A DNA stretch of 64,000 nucleotides from Novosphingobium sp. 28-62-57 (lineage in GTDB: Bacteria > Pseudomonadota > Alphaproteobacteria > Sphingomonadales > Sphingomonadaceae). Positions within the stretch are counted from its first letter, which is position 1; each line of letters opens with the position of its first letter. A model generated the notes under the pieces. That model saw nothing but the letters and a program-made list of their open reading frames with translations. It had not been told where the DNA came from and did not search any database. Both the position numbers and the translations under genes were made by a program. This document shows positions 1,296 to 61,108 of the stretch, in pieces. The stretch is from contig NCGO01000001.1 in NCBI GenBank assembly GCA_002256985.1, positions 372,001 through 436,000 of the forward strand, read 5' to 3'.

Positions 1296-2501
1296 ATGGC
1301 AAAAGTTCTCGTCATCGGCGCAGGCGGCGTCGGCTCGGTCGCGGTCCACAAGATGGCGATGAATTCCGATATCTTCAGTGGCATCGCGCTGGCCAGCCGC
1401 ACCAAAAGCAAATGCGATGCCATCGCCGCTTCGGTGAAAGAGCGCACCGGCGTGGTCATTGATACGTATCAGATCGATGCCGACGATGTGGCGGCCACCA
1501 CGGCGCTTATCAACGAAGTGAAGCCCGTCCTCGTCGTCAACCTCGCGCTGCCTTATCAGGATCTGAACATCATGGACGCCTGCCTTGCCGCAGGCGTCAA
1601 CTACATGGATACGGCCAACTACGAGCCGATCGACAAGGCCGAGTTCGAATATTCGTGGCAGTGGGCCTATCAGGAGCGCTTCAAGGAAGCGGGCCTGATG
1701 GCGCTGCTGGGGTCTGGCTTCGATCCGGGCGTGACCAGCGTGTTTGCCACCTGGCTGCGCAAGCACAAGCTCGACACGATCCGCACGCTCGACATTCTCG
1801 ATTGCAACGGCGGCGATCATGGTCAGCACTTTGCCACCAACTTCAACCCGGAAATCAACATCCGCGAAGTGACCGCGCCCGCGCGCCACTACCTGAACGG
1901 CGAATGGGTCGAAACGCCCGCGCTGACCATCCGCCAGCAGTTCGATTTCGAGCAGGTTGGCCCGAAGAACATGTACCTGATGTATCACGAGGAGCTTGAA
2001 AGCCTCGCGCATCATCTGCCCGAGATCGAGCGCATCCGCTTCTGGATGACCTTTGGCGATGCCTATATCACGCACCTGACCGTGCTGCAGAACGTGGGCA
2101 TGACGCGGATCGATCCGGTGATGTACAACGGGCAGGAAATCATCCCCCTGCAGTTCCTCAAGGCCGTGCTGCCCGAACCTGCCTCGCTGGGCGCGACGAC
2201 CAAAGGCAAGACCAACATCGGCGACATCGCTACTGGCCTGAAGGACGGGGTGGAAAAGACCTTCTACATCTACAACATCTGCGACCATGAAGACGCCTAT
2301 GCCGAAACCGGCAACCAAGCGGTCAGCTACACCACCGGCGTTCCGGCGATGATCGGTGCGGCGATGATGGTGCAGGGCATCTGGTCGGGTGAGGGCGTGT
2401 TCAACATGGAACAGTTCGATCCCGATCCCTACATGGACATGCTGAACCAGCATGGTCTGCCATGGCAGGTGAAGGAACTGGCAGGTCCGCTGGAGTTTTA
2501 A
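1296..2501 (+). CDS. Saccharopine dehydrogenase-family carboxynorspermidine dehydrogenase (CANSDH)
   Basis: A 401-residue NAD(P)-dependent oxidoreductase with an N-terminal Rossmann loop GAGGVG at residues 8-13. The family includes saccharopine dehydrogenase and carboxynorspermidine/carboxyspermidine synthase. The second is favoured because nspC follows on the same strand: this enzyme would condense putrescine or diaminopropane with aspartate semialdehyde, and NspC would decarboxylate the product to give spermidine or norspermidine. The ATG at 1296 follows TTGGAG with good spacing; an upstream in-frame codon at 1248 has no such site. The expected operon partner is separated by the small nuclease-like gene and inverted repeats at 2504-3020. 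Confidence 0.85.
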   Translation: MAKVLVIGAGGVGSVAVHKMAMNSDIFSGIALASRTKSKCDAIAASVKERTGVVIDTYQIDADDVAATTALINEVKPVLVVNLALPYQDLNIMDACLAAGVNYMDTANYEPIDKAEFEYSWQWAYQERFKEAGLMALLGSGFDPGVTSVFATWLRKHKLDTIRTLDILDCNGGDHGQHFATNFNPEINIREVTAPARHYLNGEWVETPALTIRQQFDFEQVGPKNMYLMYHEELESLAHHLPEIERIRFWMTFGDAYITHLTVLQNVGMTRIDPVMYNGQEIIPLQFLKAVLPEPASLGATTKGKTNIGDIATGLKDGVEKTFYIYNICDHEDAYAETGNQAVSYTTGVPAMIGAAMMVQGIWSGEGVFNMEQFDPDPYMDMLNQHGLPWQVKELAGPLEF

Positions 2502-2503
2502 GA

Positions 2504-2573
2504 AAGATTGTTTCACGCAGAGGCGTGGGTTGAAGAAGGTTTCGCGCAGAGGCGCAGAGGAAGCAGAGATCGC
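2504..2573. repeat. Left end of GxxExxY element: tandem half-copies of the CGCAGAGG repeat
   Basis: A degenerate copy (AAAGATTGTTTCACGCAGAG, 2504-2523) is followed by a full 35-base arm at 2539-2573. The full arm is the reverse complement of 2981-3015 with one mismatch (34/35). It contains the family core TTCGCGCAGAGGCGCAGAGG. The pair brackets the GxxExxY gene; related arms bound the elements at 6983-7140, 22386-22575 and 38842-39005. Confidence 0.9.
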
Positions 2574-2587
2574 TGAGGAAAGTATTG

Positions 2588-2974
2588 GTGACGATTGATG
2601 ACCTCAGCGCCGCTGTGATCGAAGAGGCCATTGGCATTCATCGGCAGATTGGGCCGGGCCTTTTCGAATCTGTATACGAAGCTGTTCTGTTTGGACGGCT
2701 GGAAGCGCGAGGGCTTCAGGTCGAACGGCAAGTGCCCGTCGGCGTCAATCTGGATGGCACATTTTATGATGCCGCCTTTCGGATTGATCTGCTGGTCGGT
2801 GGACGATTGATTGTTGAGATTAAGGCGGTTGATCAGCTCAGCAAGGCACATGCCAAGCAATTGTTGACTTACCTGAGATTGATAAAGCAGCCCGTTGGGC
2901 TGCTTTTGAATTTTTCCGGCGTGACGATGAAAGAAGGCATCCGTCGCCTCGTAAATGACTACAAGGCAGAATAA
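2588..2974 (+). CDS. GxxExxY protein, PD-(D/E)XK nuclease-like, inside an inverted-repeat element
   Basis: A protein of 128 residues. The family motif is G24-LF-E27-SV-Y30. A PD-(D/E)XK-type core is visible as D67, E77-I-K79 and a following Q91, the layout of restriction-like nucleases (the PDDEXK_3/TIGR04256 group). Function in the family is not established; nuclease activity is inferred from these residues. The GTG at 2588 lies 7 bases after GAGGAA; a TTG at 2585 is the alternative. The stop is 6 bases before the right 35-base inverted arm and the start 14 bases after the left arm, so the gene fills the element exactly. It interrupts the CANSDH-nspC pair. Confidence 0.85.
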   Translation: MTIDDLSAAVIEEAIGIHRQIGPGLFESVYEAVLFGRLEARGLQVERQVPVGVNLDGTFYDAAFRIDLLVGGRLIVEIKAVDQLSKAHAKQLLTYLRLIKQPVGLLLNFSGVTMKEGIRRLVNDYKAE

Positions 2975-2980
2975 GTCTTT

Positions 2981-3015
2981 GCGATCTCTGCTTCCTCTGC
3001 GTCTCTGCGCGAAAC
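2981..3015. repeat. Right 35-bp inverted arm of the GxxExxY element
   Basis: Reverse complement of 2539-2573 with one mismatch. It lies 6 bases after the GxxExxY stop codon and 19 bases before the nspC start, leaving the nspC ribosome binding site (GAGG near 3023) just outside the element. Followed by ATCTTTTT, which mirrors the AAAGAT seen outside the left end. Confidence 0.9.
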
Positions 3016-3034
3016 ATCTTTTTGAGGTCTTAAC

Positions 3035-4234
3035 ATGGAAACCAGAGCCGGCGATCCGGGCGCTTTTGCACAGTTTGACCTGCACCGGGTGGATAGCCCA
3101 GCCTTCGTGGTCGATGCGGCAAAGCTGCGCGCCAATCTGGCGGTGCTGGCTGATGTGCGCGACCGGGCCGGGATCAAGCTCTTGGCCGCGCTCAAGGCGT
3201 TTTCGATGTGGAAGGTTGCGCCGATTGTCGGGGAGTATCTCGACGGCGTGTGCACTTCGGGCCTGTGGGAAGCAAAGCTGGCGGCGGAGCACTATTCAGG
3301 CGAAATCGCGACATATTGTGCGGCCTACAAAGCGGATGATCTGGTCGAAATCCTGCAACTGTCCGATCACGTGATCTTCAATTCGCCCGGCCAGCATGTC
3401 CGCTTTGCCGGTGAGATTGCGGCGGCGCGGGCAGCGGGCAAGGCGTTCGACATCGGCCTGCGCATCAACCCGCTCCATGCCGAGGGCGAAGTGCCGCGCT
3501 ACGACCCCTGCGCGCCGCATTCGCGCCTTGGCTTTCCGGTCGACCAGCTGACTGCCGAACACCTCGAAGGCGTGTCGGGCCTGCACTTCCACACATTGTG
3601 CGAGCAGGACTTCGAACCGCTCCAGCGCACGTGGGATGCGCTTGAAGCACGCATCGCACCCTATTTCGGCCAGCTCAAATGGCTGAACTTCGGCGGCGGT
3701 CACCACATCACCCGCGCGGATTATCAACGTGATGATCTGGTGGCGTTCCTGCGCGATGTGAAAGCGCGCACGGGGTGTGAAATCTATCTGGAGCCGGGTG
3801 AGGCGGTGGCGCTCGATGCCGGTATTCTGATTGGCACCGTGCTCGATACGCACTGGAACGGAATGCAGCTTGGCATCACCGATATTTCGGCCACCTGCCA
3901 CATGCCCGATGTGATCGAGGCACCTTATCGCCCGGCCATGCTGGGGGAACTGCCGATCGATGAATACGAGGACAGTGGCGAAGTCGGCGCGCCCATTCGT
4001 CTGGGCGGGCCTTCGTGCCTGGCGGGAGACGTGATCGGCGATTACCGCCTGACCCATGGCGCTGAACCCGGCACGCGCTTTGCGTTCCTCGATCAGGCGC
4101 ACTATTCGATGGTCAAGACGACGACCTTCAACGGCGTTCCGCTGCCCTCGATCTGGCTGTGGGACAGCGAGACCGATGCGCTGGAGCAGGTCCGCGGCTT
4201 CACTTACGAGGACTTCCGCGACCGCCTTTCCTGA
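3035..4234 (+). CDS. nspC: Carboxynorspermidine decarboxylase
   Basis: A fold-type III (alanine racemase-like) PLP decarboxylase of 399 residues. The cofactor lysine is K54 in LAALKAFSMW. Other landmarks are the HFHTLCE segment, a glycine-rich GGGHH phosphate loop, EPGEAV, and C328 in SCLAGD, the conserved cysteine contributed across the dimer interface. It decarboxylates carboxyspermidine or carboxynorspermidine made by the enzyme at 1296-2501, completing the aspartate-semialdehyde route to spermidine or norspermidine. The ATG at 3035 is preceded by GAGG. Its original promoter probably lies before the dehydrogenase gene, so the intervening element may affect its expression. Confidence 0.92.
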   Translation: METRAGDPGAFAQFDLHRVDSPAFVVDAAKLRANLAVLADVRDRAGIKLLAALKAFSMWKVAPIVGEYLDGVCTSGLWEAKLAAEHYSGEIATYCAAYKADDLVEILQLSDHVIFNSPGQHVRFAGEIAAARAAGKAFDIGLRINPLHAEGEVPRYDPCAPHSRLGFPVDQLTAEHLEGVSGLHFHTLCEQDFEPLQRTWDALEARIAPYFGQLKWLNFGGGHHITRADYQRDDLVAFLRDVKARTGCEIYLEPGEAVALDAGILIGTVLDTHWNGMQLGITDISATCHMPDVIEAPYRPAMLGELPIDEYEDSGEVGAPIRLGGPSCLAGDVIGDYRLTHGAEPGTRFAFLDQAHYSMVKTTTFNGVPLPSIWLWDSETDALEQVRGFTYEDFRDRLS

Positions 4235-6982: not shown

Positions 6983-7140
6983 GAGTTTCGCGCAGAGGCG
7001 CAGAGGCGCGGAGGAGTTGCGCTTTCGGCGAAGCCGCTCAATCTTTTGCCACGCTGCGAGTTGCGCCAGGTTGTTGGTAAGATAAGCCTGACGGCCAAGC
7101 GCTACATCTCCGCGCCTCTGCGCCTCTGCGTGAAATCCCC
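6983..7140. repeat. Short inverted-repeat element, CGCAGAGG family (non-coding copy)
   Basis: The left arm 6985-7014 and right arm 7107-7135 are near-perfect inverted copies. They differ mainly at one base in the CGCGAAA/CGTGAAA end. The core of about 90 bases has no convincing gene and includes GCTTTCGGCGAAGCCG. The element lies between convergent genes, ending 6 bases before the nitroreductase stop codon. Confidence 0.85.
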
Positions 7141-22385: not shown

Positions 22386-22575
22386 GATTTTCGCGCAGAG
22401 GCGCAGAGGGTTGGATTTCAGTATTCACGCGCAGACGCGGAGGCGCGGAGTATAATGAAAGTGCTTACGGCGACCGCGCCGCAGGCCTCACTGTCTGGTC
22501 TCATTCCCTCCGCGCCTCCGCGTCTCCGCGCGAACCAAAAGCTTCTCTGCGCCTCTGCGCCTCTGCGCGAATCTT
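22386..22575. repeat. Nested pair of CGCAGAGG-family inverted-repeat elements
   Basis: The outer arms are 22386-22409 and 22552-22575. They enclose a second element with arms 22424-22450 and 22508-22534 (25 of 27 bases paired), whose repeat has drifted to a CGCGGAGGCGCGGAG form. The inner core contains CTTACGGCGACCGCGCCGCAGGCCTCA-like sequence, comparable to the cores at 6983-7140 and 38842-39005. The whole pgi-gor gap (22372-22670) holds this and nothing else recognisable. Confidence 0.85.
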
Positions 22576-31062: not shown

Positions 31063-33510
31063 TCAGAACTCGCCAGCAACGCCGACGCGAACTGCGGTGT
31101 TTGAGCCACCACCGTAAGCGACGCCTGCCGTGACAGCCATCGTGCTCGGTCCGCGCAGGCGCATGGCCATCGAAGCCGAGACGGCCTGTTCATCGCGGAA
31201 GTTGGCAACGTTCACCGAGTAGGAAACCTTGCCGGGTGCCGAAGGCATCGGTGCCTGAGTCATCGCAACGGCTGCCGCAATACCCCGACGGGCATCCTGG
31301 CGATCCTGCCGAACGGTGTTTTCCAGCGTTGTGACGCGCCCGGTGAGCGAGAACAGGCTGGTGCCGAGCGTGTTGATCTGCGTTTGCAGCTGGTTGTCAG
31401 CCGCAGCGCGGGCATTGGCTTCGGCATTGTCGGCGGCAAGACGCGTAGCTGCTTCGGCGCTGAGGCCGCTTTGCAGCGAAGCAACAGCAGCAGCACGCGT
31501 GTTAGCCTCGGCATTGACGGCGTTTTGCAGGTTCGTGTCTGCAGCAGCACGAGTCGATGCTTCGGAATTGATCGCGCCCTGCAGCGTCATGTCGGCGGCT
31601 GCACGGGTTGATGCTTCGCTATTGATTGCACCCTGCAGAGTCATGACTGCCGCCGCACGCGTTGCCGCCTCGGCATCAACGGCGTTTTGCAGTGCCAAGT
31701 CGCCTGCGGAACGGGCCAGTACCTCGGCGTCAACCGCGCTTTGCAACGCGGCGTCCCCTGCGACACGCAGACCGGCTTCGGCCGCGATGTTGGACTGCAG
31801 CATCGCCTCGGCAGCCTGACGCTGGGTGGATTCGGCATCGAACTGTGCCTTGTTCACCGCATCGGTGGCTGCCACCGCGCTTGCAACATTGACGATGCGG
31901 CGTTCTGCACCTGCCGAACCGACCGAGACGGTATTGGCCTGATCCGCCACCGAATTTGCCCCGAGCGCGACAGAGCCGACAGCCGTTGCCGACGCGTTCC
32001 GGCCAAATGCGCTTGAAGCTGTGGCCGATGCCGCAGCGCTGGTGCCGACGACGGTCGAATCAACCCCGCTGGCATTGGCGCGGTAGCCCGTTGCCGTGGC
32101 TCCGAGGGAAGTTGCCGTTGCGCCATTGCCCAGTGCTGTTGTGCCGGTGGCGCTGGCAAGCGAATTGCCGCCCAGTGCTGCGCTGCCGGAACCCGTTGCT
32201 TCAGCGTCAAAGCCGATGGCGACGTTCCCGATCTGGCTGGCGGTGCTGTAGGCGCCAATGGCAACAGCGCCCTGCGCACCTGCAGTGTTCAGAATGCCCA
32301 GAGCCACTGCGCCCTGGCCGGTTGCGGTGTTCTGTTCGCCCATCGCAATCGCGCCGCGGCCGGTTGCGGTGTTTTCTGCACCGATCGCCACCGCGCCGAT
32401 GCCGGTTGCAATGTTCGGGTCACCGATGGCGACCGCGCCATTGCCATTGGCCTGCTGACCATCGCCAAGCGCCACGGCACCCACGCCGTTGGCTGACGAA
32501 TTGTTGCCGCCCACCAGAGCGCCCTGACCTTGAGCATTCTGCACTGTGCCGTTGGTGGCGATGAGTTCATTGACCTGAGCGAGGTTTACCGCATCGCCAT
32601 CTTCCATGGCCATGCCAAGATTGGTGATGCGGCTGCCGTTCATGTTGATCCCGTCGGTCACCGAGATGGTGGGGGTGACAAGGCCTTTTTCGTCAAGAAC
32701 AGTCGTTTCCTGCGAGGTCACGTCAAACTCGACGCCAAGCGGCGAAAGGAAAACCATGGCCGGACGGCCTTGGTCATCCAGGAAGTTGGCCGCCGGGGTT
32801 ACCACTGCCATGTTCGGTGCGGCAGAAATGACCGTCGCACTGCCGCCGAGCTTACCGAAGATGAGACCGCCGGTGTCCGAAGTCCCGCGATAGCTACCTG
32901 CCAGCACGGTGGAGTTGTTGACGACGGCGGTTGGATCGACGGACTTCAGATTGAGATTGAAGTCTTCGCGACCTTTGGGGCCCAAGCCATCAGCTTCACC
33001 CTGAAAGTCGACATTGATCGCCCGAACGTCGAGGTCCTGAATCGTATAGCGCTGAAACTGGCCCAGCGGAGCGCCGGGCTGCGGATTGCCGTTTGAAGAT
33101 TGGCTGGAGACACTTCCGGTATAGGCCAGCGAACCTTCAACGCTGACCACATCGGTCCCGTACAGGAACTGCGGCGGCAAGGTGAAGGTGGACCCGGGAC
33201 TTGTCGGCAGGGCTGCGCCACCGATGACCATCGTGCCATCGAAAGTGACATTTTCCGTGTGAGTGACCGTAAAGAAGCCCGGCCGCGTTGTGCTTGGCGT
33301 AGCTGTTACCACTGGGTCAGTGTTGGTCCGGGTGCCGGAGACGGTGCACATCGAGAGCGGATGGAAGAACATGCCACCGCTGCACTGCGTTTCTGCGATC
33401 GGAATTTGGGGCGGCGAGGCGACTTGGGCGCTAGCGGCCTGTGGTGTTGCTGCCAGGGCTGCGGCGATAGCTGTCATAGAAACGTAAAAGCCCAAGTTCT
33501 TGTTAATCAT
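31063..33510 (-). CDS. YadA-type trimeric autotransporter adhesin
   Basis: An 815-residue surface protein. The signal peptide covers about residues 1-29 (ending ASAQ). Residues 30-300 form a unique N-terminal domain. A head at about 323-530 is made of many 14-residue repeats of the GxGAVAIG/ATG type. The stalk at about 580-690 contains six tandem 18-residue repeats (AADMTLQGAINSEASTRA type), a helical period expected to give a nearly untwisted trimeric coiled coil. The last 75 residues, from VSYSVNVANF to GVAGEF, are the YadA membrane anchor. Expected role: adhesion to surfaces or cells. A CtrA-like box and a 24-bp palindrome lie upstream. Confidence 0.93.
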   Translation of the reverse strand: MINKNLGFYVSMTAIAAALAATPQAASAQVASPPQIPIAETQCSGGMFFHPLSMCTVSGTRTNTDPVVTATPSTTRPGFFTVTHTENVTFDGTMVIGGAALPTSPGSTFTLPPQFLYGTDVVSVEGSLAYTGSVSSQSSNGNPQPGAPLGQFQRYTIQDLDVRAINVDFQGEADGLGPKGREDFNLNLKSVDPTAVVNNSTVLAGSYRGTSDTGGLIFGKLGGSATVISAAPNMAVVTPAANFLDDQGRPAMVFLSPLGVEFDVTSQETTVLDEKGLVTPTISVTDGINMNGSRITNLGMAMEDGDAVNLAQVNELIATNGTVQNAQGQGALVGGNNSSANGVGAVALGDGQQANGNGAVAIGDPNIATGIGAVAIGAENTATGRGAIAMGEQNTATGQGAVALGILNTAGAQGAVAIGAYSTASQIGNVAIGFDAEATGSGSAALGGNSLASATGTTALGNGATATSLGATATGYRANASGVDSTVVGTSAAASATASSAFGRNASATAVGSVALGANSVADQANTVSVGSAGAERRIVNVASAVAATDAVNKAQFDAESTQRQAAEAMLQSNIAAEAGLRVAGDAALQSAVDAEVLARSAGDLALQNAVDAEAATRAAAVMTLQGAINSEASTRAAADMTLQGAINSEASTRAAADTNLQNAVNAEANTRAAAVASLQSGLSAEAATRLAADNAEANARAAADNQLQTQINTLGTSLFSLTGRVTTLENTVRQDRQDARRGIAAAVAMTQAPMPSAPGKVSYSVNVANFRDEQAVSASMAMRLRGPSTMAVTAGVAYGGGSNTAVRVGVAGEF

Positions 33511-33612: not shown

Positions 33613-33701
33613 CCGACCTATATCATAAATTGCTATGGCTTTGGAGGCATCAGCGCTCTTGCCTGTTGCCCTCGATGGTGCGGCGTTCTATGGCTTTTGC
33701 C

Positions 33702-35749
<2,048 letters not shown>

Positions 35750-38841: not shown

Positions 38842-39005
38842 GTTTCGCGCAGAGGGCGCAGGGGAAGCAGAGGCGCAAAGACGTTGAACTTGCGGCAAAG
38901 CCGTCTCACCAAGTTGGACGTTGCGTTTTTCGTGAGAGCCTTGGAGTAGATAGACCTTCGGTCCGGCGGTCCATCTCTGCTCCCTTTGCGGACTCTGCGC
39001 GAAAC
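38842..39005. repeat. CGCAGAGG-family inverted-repeat element, copy at 38.8 kb
   Basis: Left arm 38842-38872 and right arm 38975-39005 are imperfect inverted copies of about 31 bases sharing CTCTGCGCGAAAC ends. The core includes CTTGCGGCAAAGCCGTCTCA, resembling the core at 7018-7045. The surrounding gap (38745-39212) also holds a degenerate CCGTTCGTGTTGCGAGCG fragment near 38791 and the terminator at 39091; no gene is seen. Confidence 0.8.
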
Positions 39006-60789: not shown

Positions 60790-60887
60790 CTTTTGGTTTG
60801 TAAGGTTCAGCACAACCATCGTGGATAACGGCGGGAAGCCCGTGTTGACTTCACGCTGCACTGCAGCGATGAACAGGCGTCGCTGAT

Positions 60888-61108
60888 CGCGCGGGAGAGT
60901 TCTCTCGATTCGTTCAGAGTCGAGAGACGCCGAAGGAGCAACCGCCCCGGAATCTCTCAGGCAAAAGGACCGCGTGGGTCGACAGCGACACTCTGGAAAG
61001 AGTCATTTCCCGCAAAGGGAAGGGCCGCCGAAGGGGTAACCCCATGAAACCCGTCAGGAGAGGCGGGCGGGGGAAAGCTCTCAGGTTTCCGTGACAGAGG
61101 GGGCGCCG
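60888..61108 (+). ncRNA. Tandem glycine riboswitch
   Basis: Two aptamers lie in tandem before gcvT. The first has GGGAGAG, GCCGAAGGAGCAA, CTCTCAGGCAAAAGGACCG and the linker GACACTCTGGAAAGAG. The second has CGCCGAAGGGGTAACC and CTCTCAGGTTTCCGTGACAGAGGGG. Glycine binding turns on glycine cleavage genes. A TTGACT at 60845-60850 is a possible -35 element. Confidence 0.93.

Follow-up and report, generated by a model that had tools for sequence, protein, structure and literature searches.

A GxxExxY gene between paired inverted arms: association of a PD-(D/E)xK nuclease-like family with short-unit repeats, and a possible RAYT/REPIN-like partnership

A small gene of the GxxExxY family fills the space between two long inverted arms in the genome of a Novosphingobium species, which raises the question of whether the protein acts on the repeats around it or is simply enclosed by them. 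The window, the whole stretch of 64,000 nucleotides analysed here, corresponds to G000:C1:372001-436000, where G000 is the 4.10-Mb source genome. A preliminary description, made from the letters, had reported 35-bp arms complementary at 34 positions, with the gene occupying the interval between them except for 14 bases on the left and 6 on the right, and had proposed that GxxExxY nucleases move or maintain these repeats as RAYT transposases serve REP repeats. A repeat search reproduced the arms, 34/35 complementary (97%) and 407 nt apart, and detected no other inverted pair in 2400-3200. The gene begins with TTG at 2585, 11 bases from the left arm; the 14-base spacing holds for a possible alternative GTG start at 2588, and 6 bases separate the gene from the right arm. 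The locus is made up as follows.

1248-2501, + strand: CANSDH (carboxynorspermidine dehydrogenase), upstream neighbour; open reading frame, named from the first sequence reading
2504-2525, + strand: degenerate solo arm fragment outside the element; direct repeat, matching a section of the left arm at 86%
2539-2573, + strand: left (5′) arm, purine-rich GCGCAGAG repeated, then AAGCAGAG-ATCGC; pattern match at 2542-2559
2585-2974, + strand: GxxExxY gene, 129 aa, with PD-(D/E)xK residues D68, E78 and K80, and Q92..Y96
2981-3015, - strand: right (3′) arm, complementary to the left arm at 34/35 positions in inverted orientation
3035-4234, + strand: nspC (carboxynorspermidine decarboxylase), downstream neighbour; open reading frame, named from the first sequence reading

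The encoded protein scores 121.4 bits against TIGR04256 (GxxExxY; cut-off 35) and 125.1 bits against PF13366 (PDDEXK_3; cut-off 22). The residues singled out in the preliminary description as D67, E77-x-K79 and Q91 become D68, E78, K80 and Q92 when counted from the TTG, and all four are invariant in 75 aligned sequences, namely the window protein together with those from 74 of the 80 set-1 loci (see below). Q92 and Y96 form what we take to be a QxxxY motif. The only Pfam match besides PF13366 is a weak one to Cas4 (E 0.016, 15.8 bits, below the cut-off of 22.7) over the D/ExK/QxxxY stretch. The protein resembles the Cas4 and RecB-type PD-(D/E)xK nucleases in this respect and differs from them in having no cysteine and no solved relative detectable by sequence (phmmer gave two matches at E 0.3-0.34, a profile search none). 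In the open-licence literature, two papers mention this widespread family in passing, and we found no tested function there.

The association between GxxExxY genes and arms of this kind is strong. Arms counted as strong if an inverted alignment scoring at least 34 could be made within 200 bp of the gene, a threshold picked from the controls. Set 1, from a contig scan, comprises the best 80 of at least 564 loci; more than half are from sphingomonads, and the others come from Verrucomicrobia, Planctomycetota, Chloroflexi, Gemmatimonadetes, Desulfobacteraceae, Desulfuromonadales, Flavobacterium and further taxa. Sets 2 and 3 were drawn from 40 genomes already known to carry GxxExxY, after removal of duplicates of set 1 (21/60 and 11/30). 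Strong arms flank 64 of the 80 top-ranked genes in set 1, 25/39 in set 2 and 12/19 in set 3, or 101 of 138 genes over the three sets, the remaining 37 falling below the threshold. Random spans of the same length at set-1 loci reached this score in 2/1247 cases in a first draw and 2/1903 in a second, and a score of at least 40 was attained by 59 of the 80 top-ranked set-1 genes against 0/1247 and 0/1903 spans. The window gene arms score 65 in this local-alignment test; the highest score among the 1247 spans in relatives' loci is 35. Sets 2 and 3, together with the four-helix loci discussed at the end, were controlled by ParE genes of the same genomes: strong arms occurred at 0 of 20 ParE genes from 30 of the genomes, 10 of the 30 loci having been left out as shorter than the assumed coordinates. 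Enrichment beside GxxExxY genes across phyla, which the preliminary description had offered as a check, is present. By origin, the top-ranked loci of set 1 divide into 42/43 sphingomonad or alphaproteobacterial-looking loci and 22/37 others with strong arms, so that 15 of the 37 loci outside the sphingomonad-like group have none. GxxExxY genes are rare on plasmids (8 of 72,556 records), and arms were present at three of the four plasmid loci examined. Carriage as phage or virus cargo was rejected, there being no phage match and, in a scan of viral contigs, 79 pattern matches and no relative; against this, an algal virus genome lists a GxxExxY protein in the passage concerned (PMC12085832).

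The arms are arrays of an 8- to 10-nt unit. Their outer end is often TTCACGC or TTCGCGC, followed inward by the tandem unit, which is CGCRRAGR at most of the top-ranked set-1 loci and takes the forms CACAGATGAA, CACGAAGGA and AACAGGATT among other dialects across the sets. In 60 scored set-1 pairs the period is 8 in 47, 9 in 7 and 10 in 4, each being the best of 5-13 taken without a shuffled control for units that can be aligned in several registers; the purine-rich strand forms the 5′ arm in 58 of the 60. Several reading frames at the fabD-fabG site described below run on into the 3′ arm. Nested pairs gave rise to the idea that elements insert into hairpin tips, which we rejected as a general rule because the outer 30-nt flanks are barely more complementary than cross-locus pairings (mean 11.5 against 9.8 over 54 loci with ends kept, and 9.8 against 8.9 after removal of the last 3 nt). 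Flank scores of at least 18 occurred in 4/54 and 2/54 loci against 0.7% and 0.2% of cross pairs, respectively, with L064 and L094 as clear exceptions. Inspection of fabD-fabG loci by eye showed no target-site duplication. A known structured RNA was also rejected, as an Rfam search of 17 loci returned only sub-threshold matches, nearly all to microRNA precursors; in the window itself, matches above Rfam gathering thresholds are tandem glycine riboswitch aptamers at 60882-60982 and 60983-61107 and a TPP riboswitch at 33696-33803, all on the + strand.

GxxExxY genes occupy two recurrent sites. Of the 59 genes placed in a tree, 37 are located between fabD and fabG and 5, including the window gene, between CANSDH and nspC; the latter nest in the fabD-fabG clade along with two fab-site copies. 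Empty CANSDH-nspC junctions, for which the preliminary description had proposed to look, exist in relatives: among 23 same-genus genomes with both flanks, the element is present in G000 and G011, while the junction is at most 39 bp long in six, filled by unrelated palindromes of 123-130 bp in three, and occupied by 250-1349 bp of other sequence in twelve. The palindromic repeats are those of G009, G013 and G023 (L103, L109 and L115; 130, 123 and 128 bp, respectively), and gaps of this type seem to collect palindromes. At fabD-fabG, same-genus genomes without the element have junctions of -13 to 4 bp in 13/19 cases; the 68-bp junction of G015 (L136) lacks the gene and holds apparent arm remnants. 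The upstream neighbour is co-directional at all 36 listed element-bearing fabD-fabG loci and at 27/32 loci outside both recurrent sites. Midpoint-rooted trees of fabG and GxxExxY share a 13/22 split (Mantel r 0.48, against a maximum of 0.295 in 5000 permutations), and the nearest neighbour is identical in only 9/35 cases, which suggests that the deeper branches were inherited vertically; the disagreement at the tips likely reflects exchange between species or weak signal. One record, L031 (QDFQ01000005.1, labelled Arthrobacter sp. TPD3018), encodes fabG and GxxExxY proteins nearly those of Sphingomonas aquatilis and is probably mislabelled or contaminated.

GxxExxY is an old gene and evolves under purifying selection, with dN/dS of 0.04-0.12 in nine pairs, in five of which dS exceeds 1. 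Within genomes its copies are divergent and not amplified, on which ground we rejected an active transposon or a classic insertion sequence with MITEs. Among 86 gene copies a single within-genome pair exceeds 75% DNA identity, two genes 3.7 kb apart and 89% identical (G074:C233:28449-28799 and 32151-32501; L188 and L212).

At one orthologous site, fabD-fabG, the two arms of a locus change together. Arm letters there vary between species, and both arms of one locus tend to agree: over 28 loci, the match of an arm to its own partner averages 51.5 against 34.1 across loci, the best of 10,000 permutations reaching 41.5, although an arm finds its single best match in its own partner at only 16/28. 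Conversion of both arms in place and replacement are each compatible with this pattern. Differences between arms on the coding strand are G/A in 38 cases and A/G in 37, with no wobble bias, and maintenance of the arms at the RNA level was rejected for want of any excess of G.U-type over A.C-type differences.

Within the genus, arms accompany the gene and also extend beyond it. GxxExxY scores above cut-off in 7 of 37 same-genus genomes (G000 included) and in 0 of 24 genomes from other genera of the order. G000 has two such genes, the second lying between fabD and fabG with 33-nt arms of another letter type (31/33 identical when aligned). All 10 full-length genes in the seven genomes have arms, 8 found by script (scores 30-67) and two, L013 and L018, by reading. 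At least six arm matches are present in 7/7 gene-bearing and 5/30 gene-less same-genus genomes (Fisher p=7.7e-5, genomes treated as independent). No arm match occurs in 16 of the 30 gene-less same-genus genomes or in any of the 24 other-genus genomes, and a backward-pattern control gave 0 matches in 61/61. The arm-rich genomes without the gene are G007 (76 matches), G033 (63), G018 (31; 80% complete), G004 (15) and G020 (8; 81% complete).

Arm recurrence was followed with a wider arm pattern, for which the backward control gives 0-2 matches per genome and strand. Counted by eye among the matches listed, exact arm 18-mers recur elsewhere in their own genome at least 35 times for the window gene and 11 times for the fab gene of G000, at least 10 times for G036, 9 for the fab gene of G023, 5 for G009, 3 for the CANSDH gene of G011, 2 for G025 and once for G013. 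The second G023 gene (L013) has no further exact arm copy in its genome among the matches listed. Arm 18-mers of one genome are also present in others: TCACGCGGAGGCGCGGAG occurs at least 19 times in G007, a genome without the gene, and the G009 arm 18-mer has at least two copies in G000.

The preliminary description had placed the same arm family at three gene-less loci of the window. Two of these were found by pattern, and the third, too degenerate for a pattern allowing two mismatches, by BLAST and reading; two of the window's gene-less pairs sit between convergent genes.

6985-7136, no strand: gene-less arm pair, arms at about 6985-7013 and 7108-7136, between convergent genes; pattern match
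22388-22573, no strand: two nested gene-less pairs (L176), between tandem genes; pattern match
22388-22409 / 22545-22573, no strand: outer pair of L176, type A; pattern match
about 22423-22450 / 22508-22536, no strand: inner pair of L176, type B; pattern match
38842-39005, no strand: gene-less pair, more degenerate, arms 38842-38880 / 38975-39005; BLAST match, limits by reading

In G000 as a whole, 40 neighbouring arm matches lie within 600 bp of each other, 33 facing inward (two of them the gene elements), one outward and six in the same direction. Inward pairs without a gene number 31 among the 83 arm matches listed; 30 of them are spaced 49-259 bp apart and one 470 bp, where type A arms surround apparent other repeat families and no gene (L362; G000:C29:167400-168600). 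By eye, some pairs are nested, and the interiors look unrelated to each other and to the gene except for small GC-rich hairpins; classic MITEs were rejected on this difference between interiors and gene. The 19 gene-less pairs that were folded have very stable predicted structures. At two gene-less window sites, G009 lacks an element, and G018 and G011 show either another arm type or no element; loci L350, L351, L352 and L354 aligned too poorly to be judged in the comparison of site 6985. A third G000 arm type, TCACGCAGAGACGCAGAG and near variants, forms pairs about 151 bp apart (for example, C1:277979-278148, C27:84376-84544 and C35:52923-53091) and resembles pairs in G033 and the arms of the GxxExxY genes L020 and L022; neither of the two GxxExxY genes in G000 carries it.

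How might gene and arms be related? We consider the best reading, at a probability of about one half, to be a gene-repeat partnership of the RAYT/REPIN kind built on an unrelated RecB/Cas4-type nuclease, whose action on the arms we infer. The protein would be a small PD-(D/E)xK nuclease recognizing the arms as DNA, whether as hairpin, cruciform or paired ends, and would cut the arms or the DNA close by; repair of the cut, or copying from a template, could then match one arm to the other and might occasionally place new arm pairs in other intergenic gaps, while the gene itself would move rarely. The RAYT analogy of the preliminary description is extended by the recurrence of gene arms in the genome, the age of the gene copies and the greater number of arms in gene-bearing genomes. 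A simple mobile element, to which the preliminary description had likened the locus, is disfavoured: gene copies rarely move, and arm-rich genomes without the gene exist.

In the relevant passages of the literature, RAYT/REPIN repeats are inverted doublets able to form hairpins that survive without the gene (PMC3116915, PMC8049555). As far as those passages go, GxxExxY and its arms may share with that system an own repeat type for each gene, and do share several distinct gene/repeat pairs in one genome, hairpin-capable inverted doublets that are more numerous with the gene and persist without it, and gene copies that are divergent rather than amplified and rare on plasmids (here 8/72,556 records); scattered gene-less inverted doublets are likewise found among the G000 arms. 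The two systems differ in that RAYT is a Y1 HUH transposase whereas GxxExxY is a PD-(D/E)xK protein of PF13366, and in that GxxExxY arms are arrays of 8- to 10-nt units close to the gene on both sides, with unrelated-looking gene-less interiors. Similar repeats are known from Geobacter metallireducens, of which a 2009 study describes, in the section concerned, three classes of "putative global regulator binding sites", possibly for IHF/HU; class 2 is a tandem octanucleotide TCTCCGTS and class 3 consists of heptanucleotides, paired on opposite strands (PMC2700814). The reverse complement of class 2, SACGGAGA, is a GxxExxY-type unit and the paired opposite-strand arrangement is alike, whereas the sites are described in that section without a gene inside and taken as regulator sites. 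Families of multicopy sequences are also reported in the corresponding part of a study on G. bemidjiensis (PMC2996986). In the open-licence literature searched we found no paired arms linked to a GxxExxY gene, nothing under the arm strings, PDDEXK_3, Novosphingobium with miniature inverted-repeat, or IVS-protein and repeat terms combined, and PMC2700814 alone for tandem octanucleotide repeats. The association offers GxxExxY a testable substrate and a way to predict its own repeats, gives the paired octamers and heptamers of Geobacter a candidate enzyme, and makes the GxxExxY gene a candidate partner enzyme for a large class of unexplained bacterial repeats.

Other explanations account for parts of the same evidence. 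The gene may be a passenger, merely enclosed by arms that are copied by host replication slippage, template switching or an unrelated transposase, which would fit the arm-rich genomes without GxxExxY, the unrelated palindromes at the same junctions in congeners and the third G000 arm type with no gene there. We regard this as rather unlikely, given that the association spans many phyla and is missing from all 20 ParE genes tested, that arm number tracks gene presence in the genus, and that unit length differs between two families of the same layout (see below), as if set by the protein. An unlikely reading is that the arms are binding sites of a regulator or architectural protein, either IHF/HU-like or GxxExxY itself as an autoregulator, with the gene-less pairs as its regulon and their spread incidental. 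This is how the paired octamer and heptamer arrays of G. metallireducens, which lie on opposite strands, were interpreted in the section cited (PMC2700814), and arms do lie inside operons and in intergenic gaps; however, two orthologous gene-less sites vary in arm type or presence among close relatives, leaving no stable regulon there, the invariant catalytic-type residues would be unneeded for binding, and nested pairs resemble insertions.

It is less probable again that the element works as RNA in the manner of the intervening sequences (IVS) of 23S rRNA, the stem of paired arms being trimmed by RNase III or another RNase so that insertion into operons is harmless and the protein accessory. 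The anatomy resembles that described for the Coxiella IVS in the passages concerned (PMC4990558), upstream neighbours are mostly co-directional and the 19 folded pairs are predicted to be very stable, but the near equality of G.U-type and A.C-type differences (38 vs 37) and the two gene-less window pairs between convergent genes point the other way. The same convergent pairs would suit ordinary terminators or chance hairpins, as would a run of five T beyond the right arm of the window gene (3019-3023), further T runs beyond the right arms of L030 and L043, and other hairpins at the same places in relatives. That the arms are nothing else, which the preliminary description had named as a point against its proposal, we nevertheless find highly improbable: arm scores far exceed those of random spans, many other fab-site right arms have no T run, and the arms bracket a gene in mid-operon and recur at GxxExxY but not ParE genes. 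The right arm of the window gene may still have a side role in termination, given the five T that follow it. A terminator scan restricted to loops of 3-8 nt, and thus blind to arms 407 nt apart, returned a single site, a terminator-like stem with a T-rich tail at 2884-2906 within the GxxExxY reading frame (shuffles of the region average 1.5).

The partnership that we favour may also extend to a second protein family. Somewhat tentatively, and short of an even expectation, we propose that two unrelated families of small proteins, GxxExxY nucleases and S23/IVS four-helix bundles, may each maintain an arm class of their own, with unit length following the protein (8-10 against mostly 7 nt); the 23S rRNA IVS would then have come from such elements landing in rRNA, and gene-less members of the two systems would account for many of the paired intergenic repeats of bacteria that still lack an explanation. 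The Coxiella 23S rRNA IVS has, in the passages that describe it, a 28-bp terminal stem and tandem heptamers (GACAGAT) ahead of the S23p reading frame, and one old proposal mentioned there holds the IVS to be a mobile element whose reading frame serves mobility (PMC4990558). On that description, both kinds of element have a small reading frame flanked by inverted repeats, about 28 bp long in the IVS, that contain or adjoin short tandem units, whereas the IVS lies in 23S rRNA with a four-helix protein and GxxExxY elements lie between protein genes, with a nuclease-type family and 8- to 10-nt units. The window copy has CANSDH and nspC as neighbours and encodes GxxExxY, not S23p; fabD-fabG is the second site of recurrence. 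The old question of what 23S rRNA IVS are gains a comparative footing here, and arms at four-helix genes may link the two kinds of element. Four-helix genes of TIGR02436 are present in 26 of 30 GxxExxY genomes, and 17 of 30 TIGR02436 loci have arms scoring at least 34, with a period of 7 in 13 of the 17 and of 8 in the other four.
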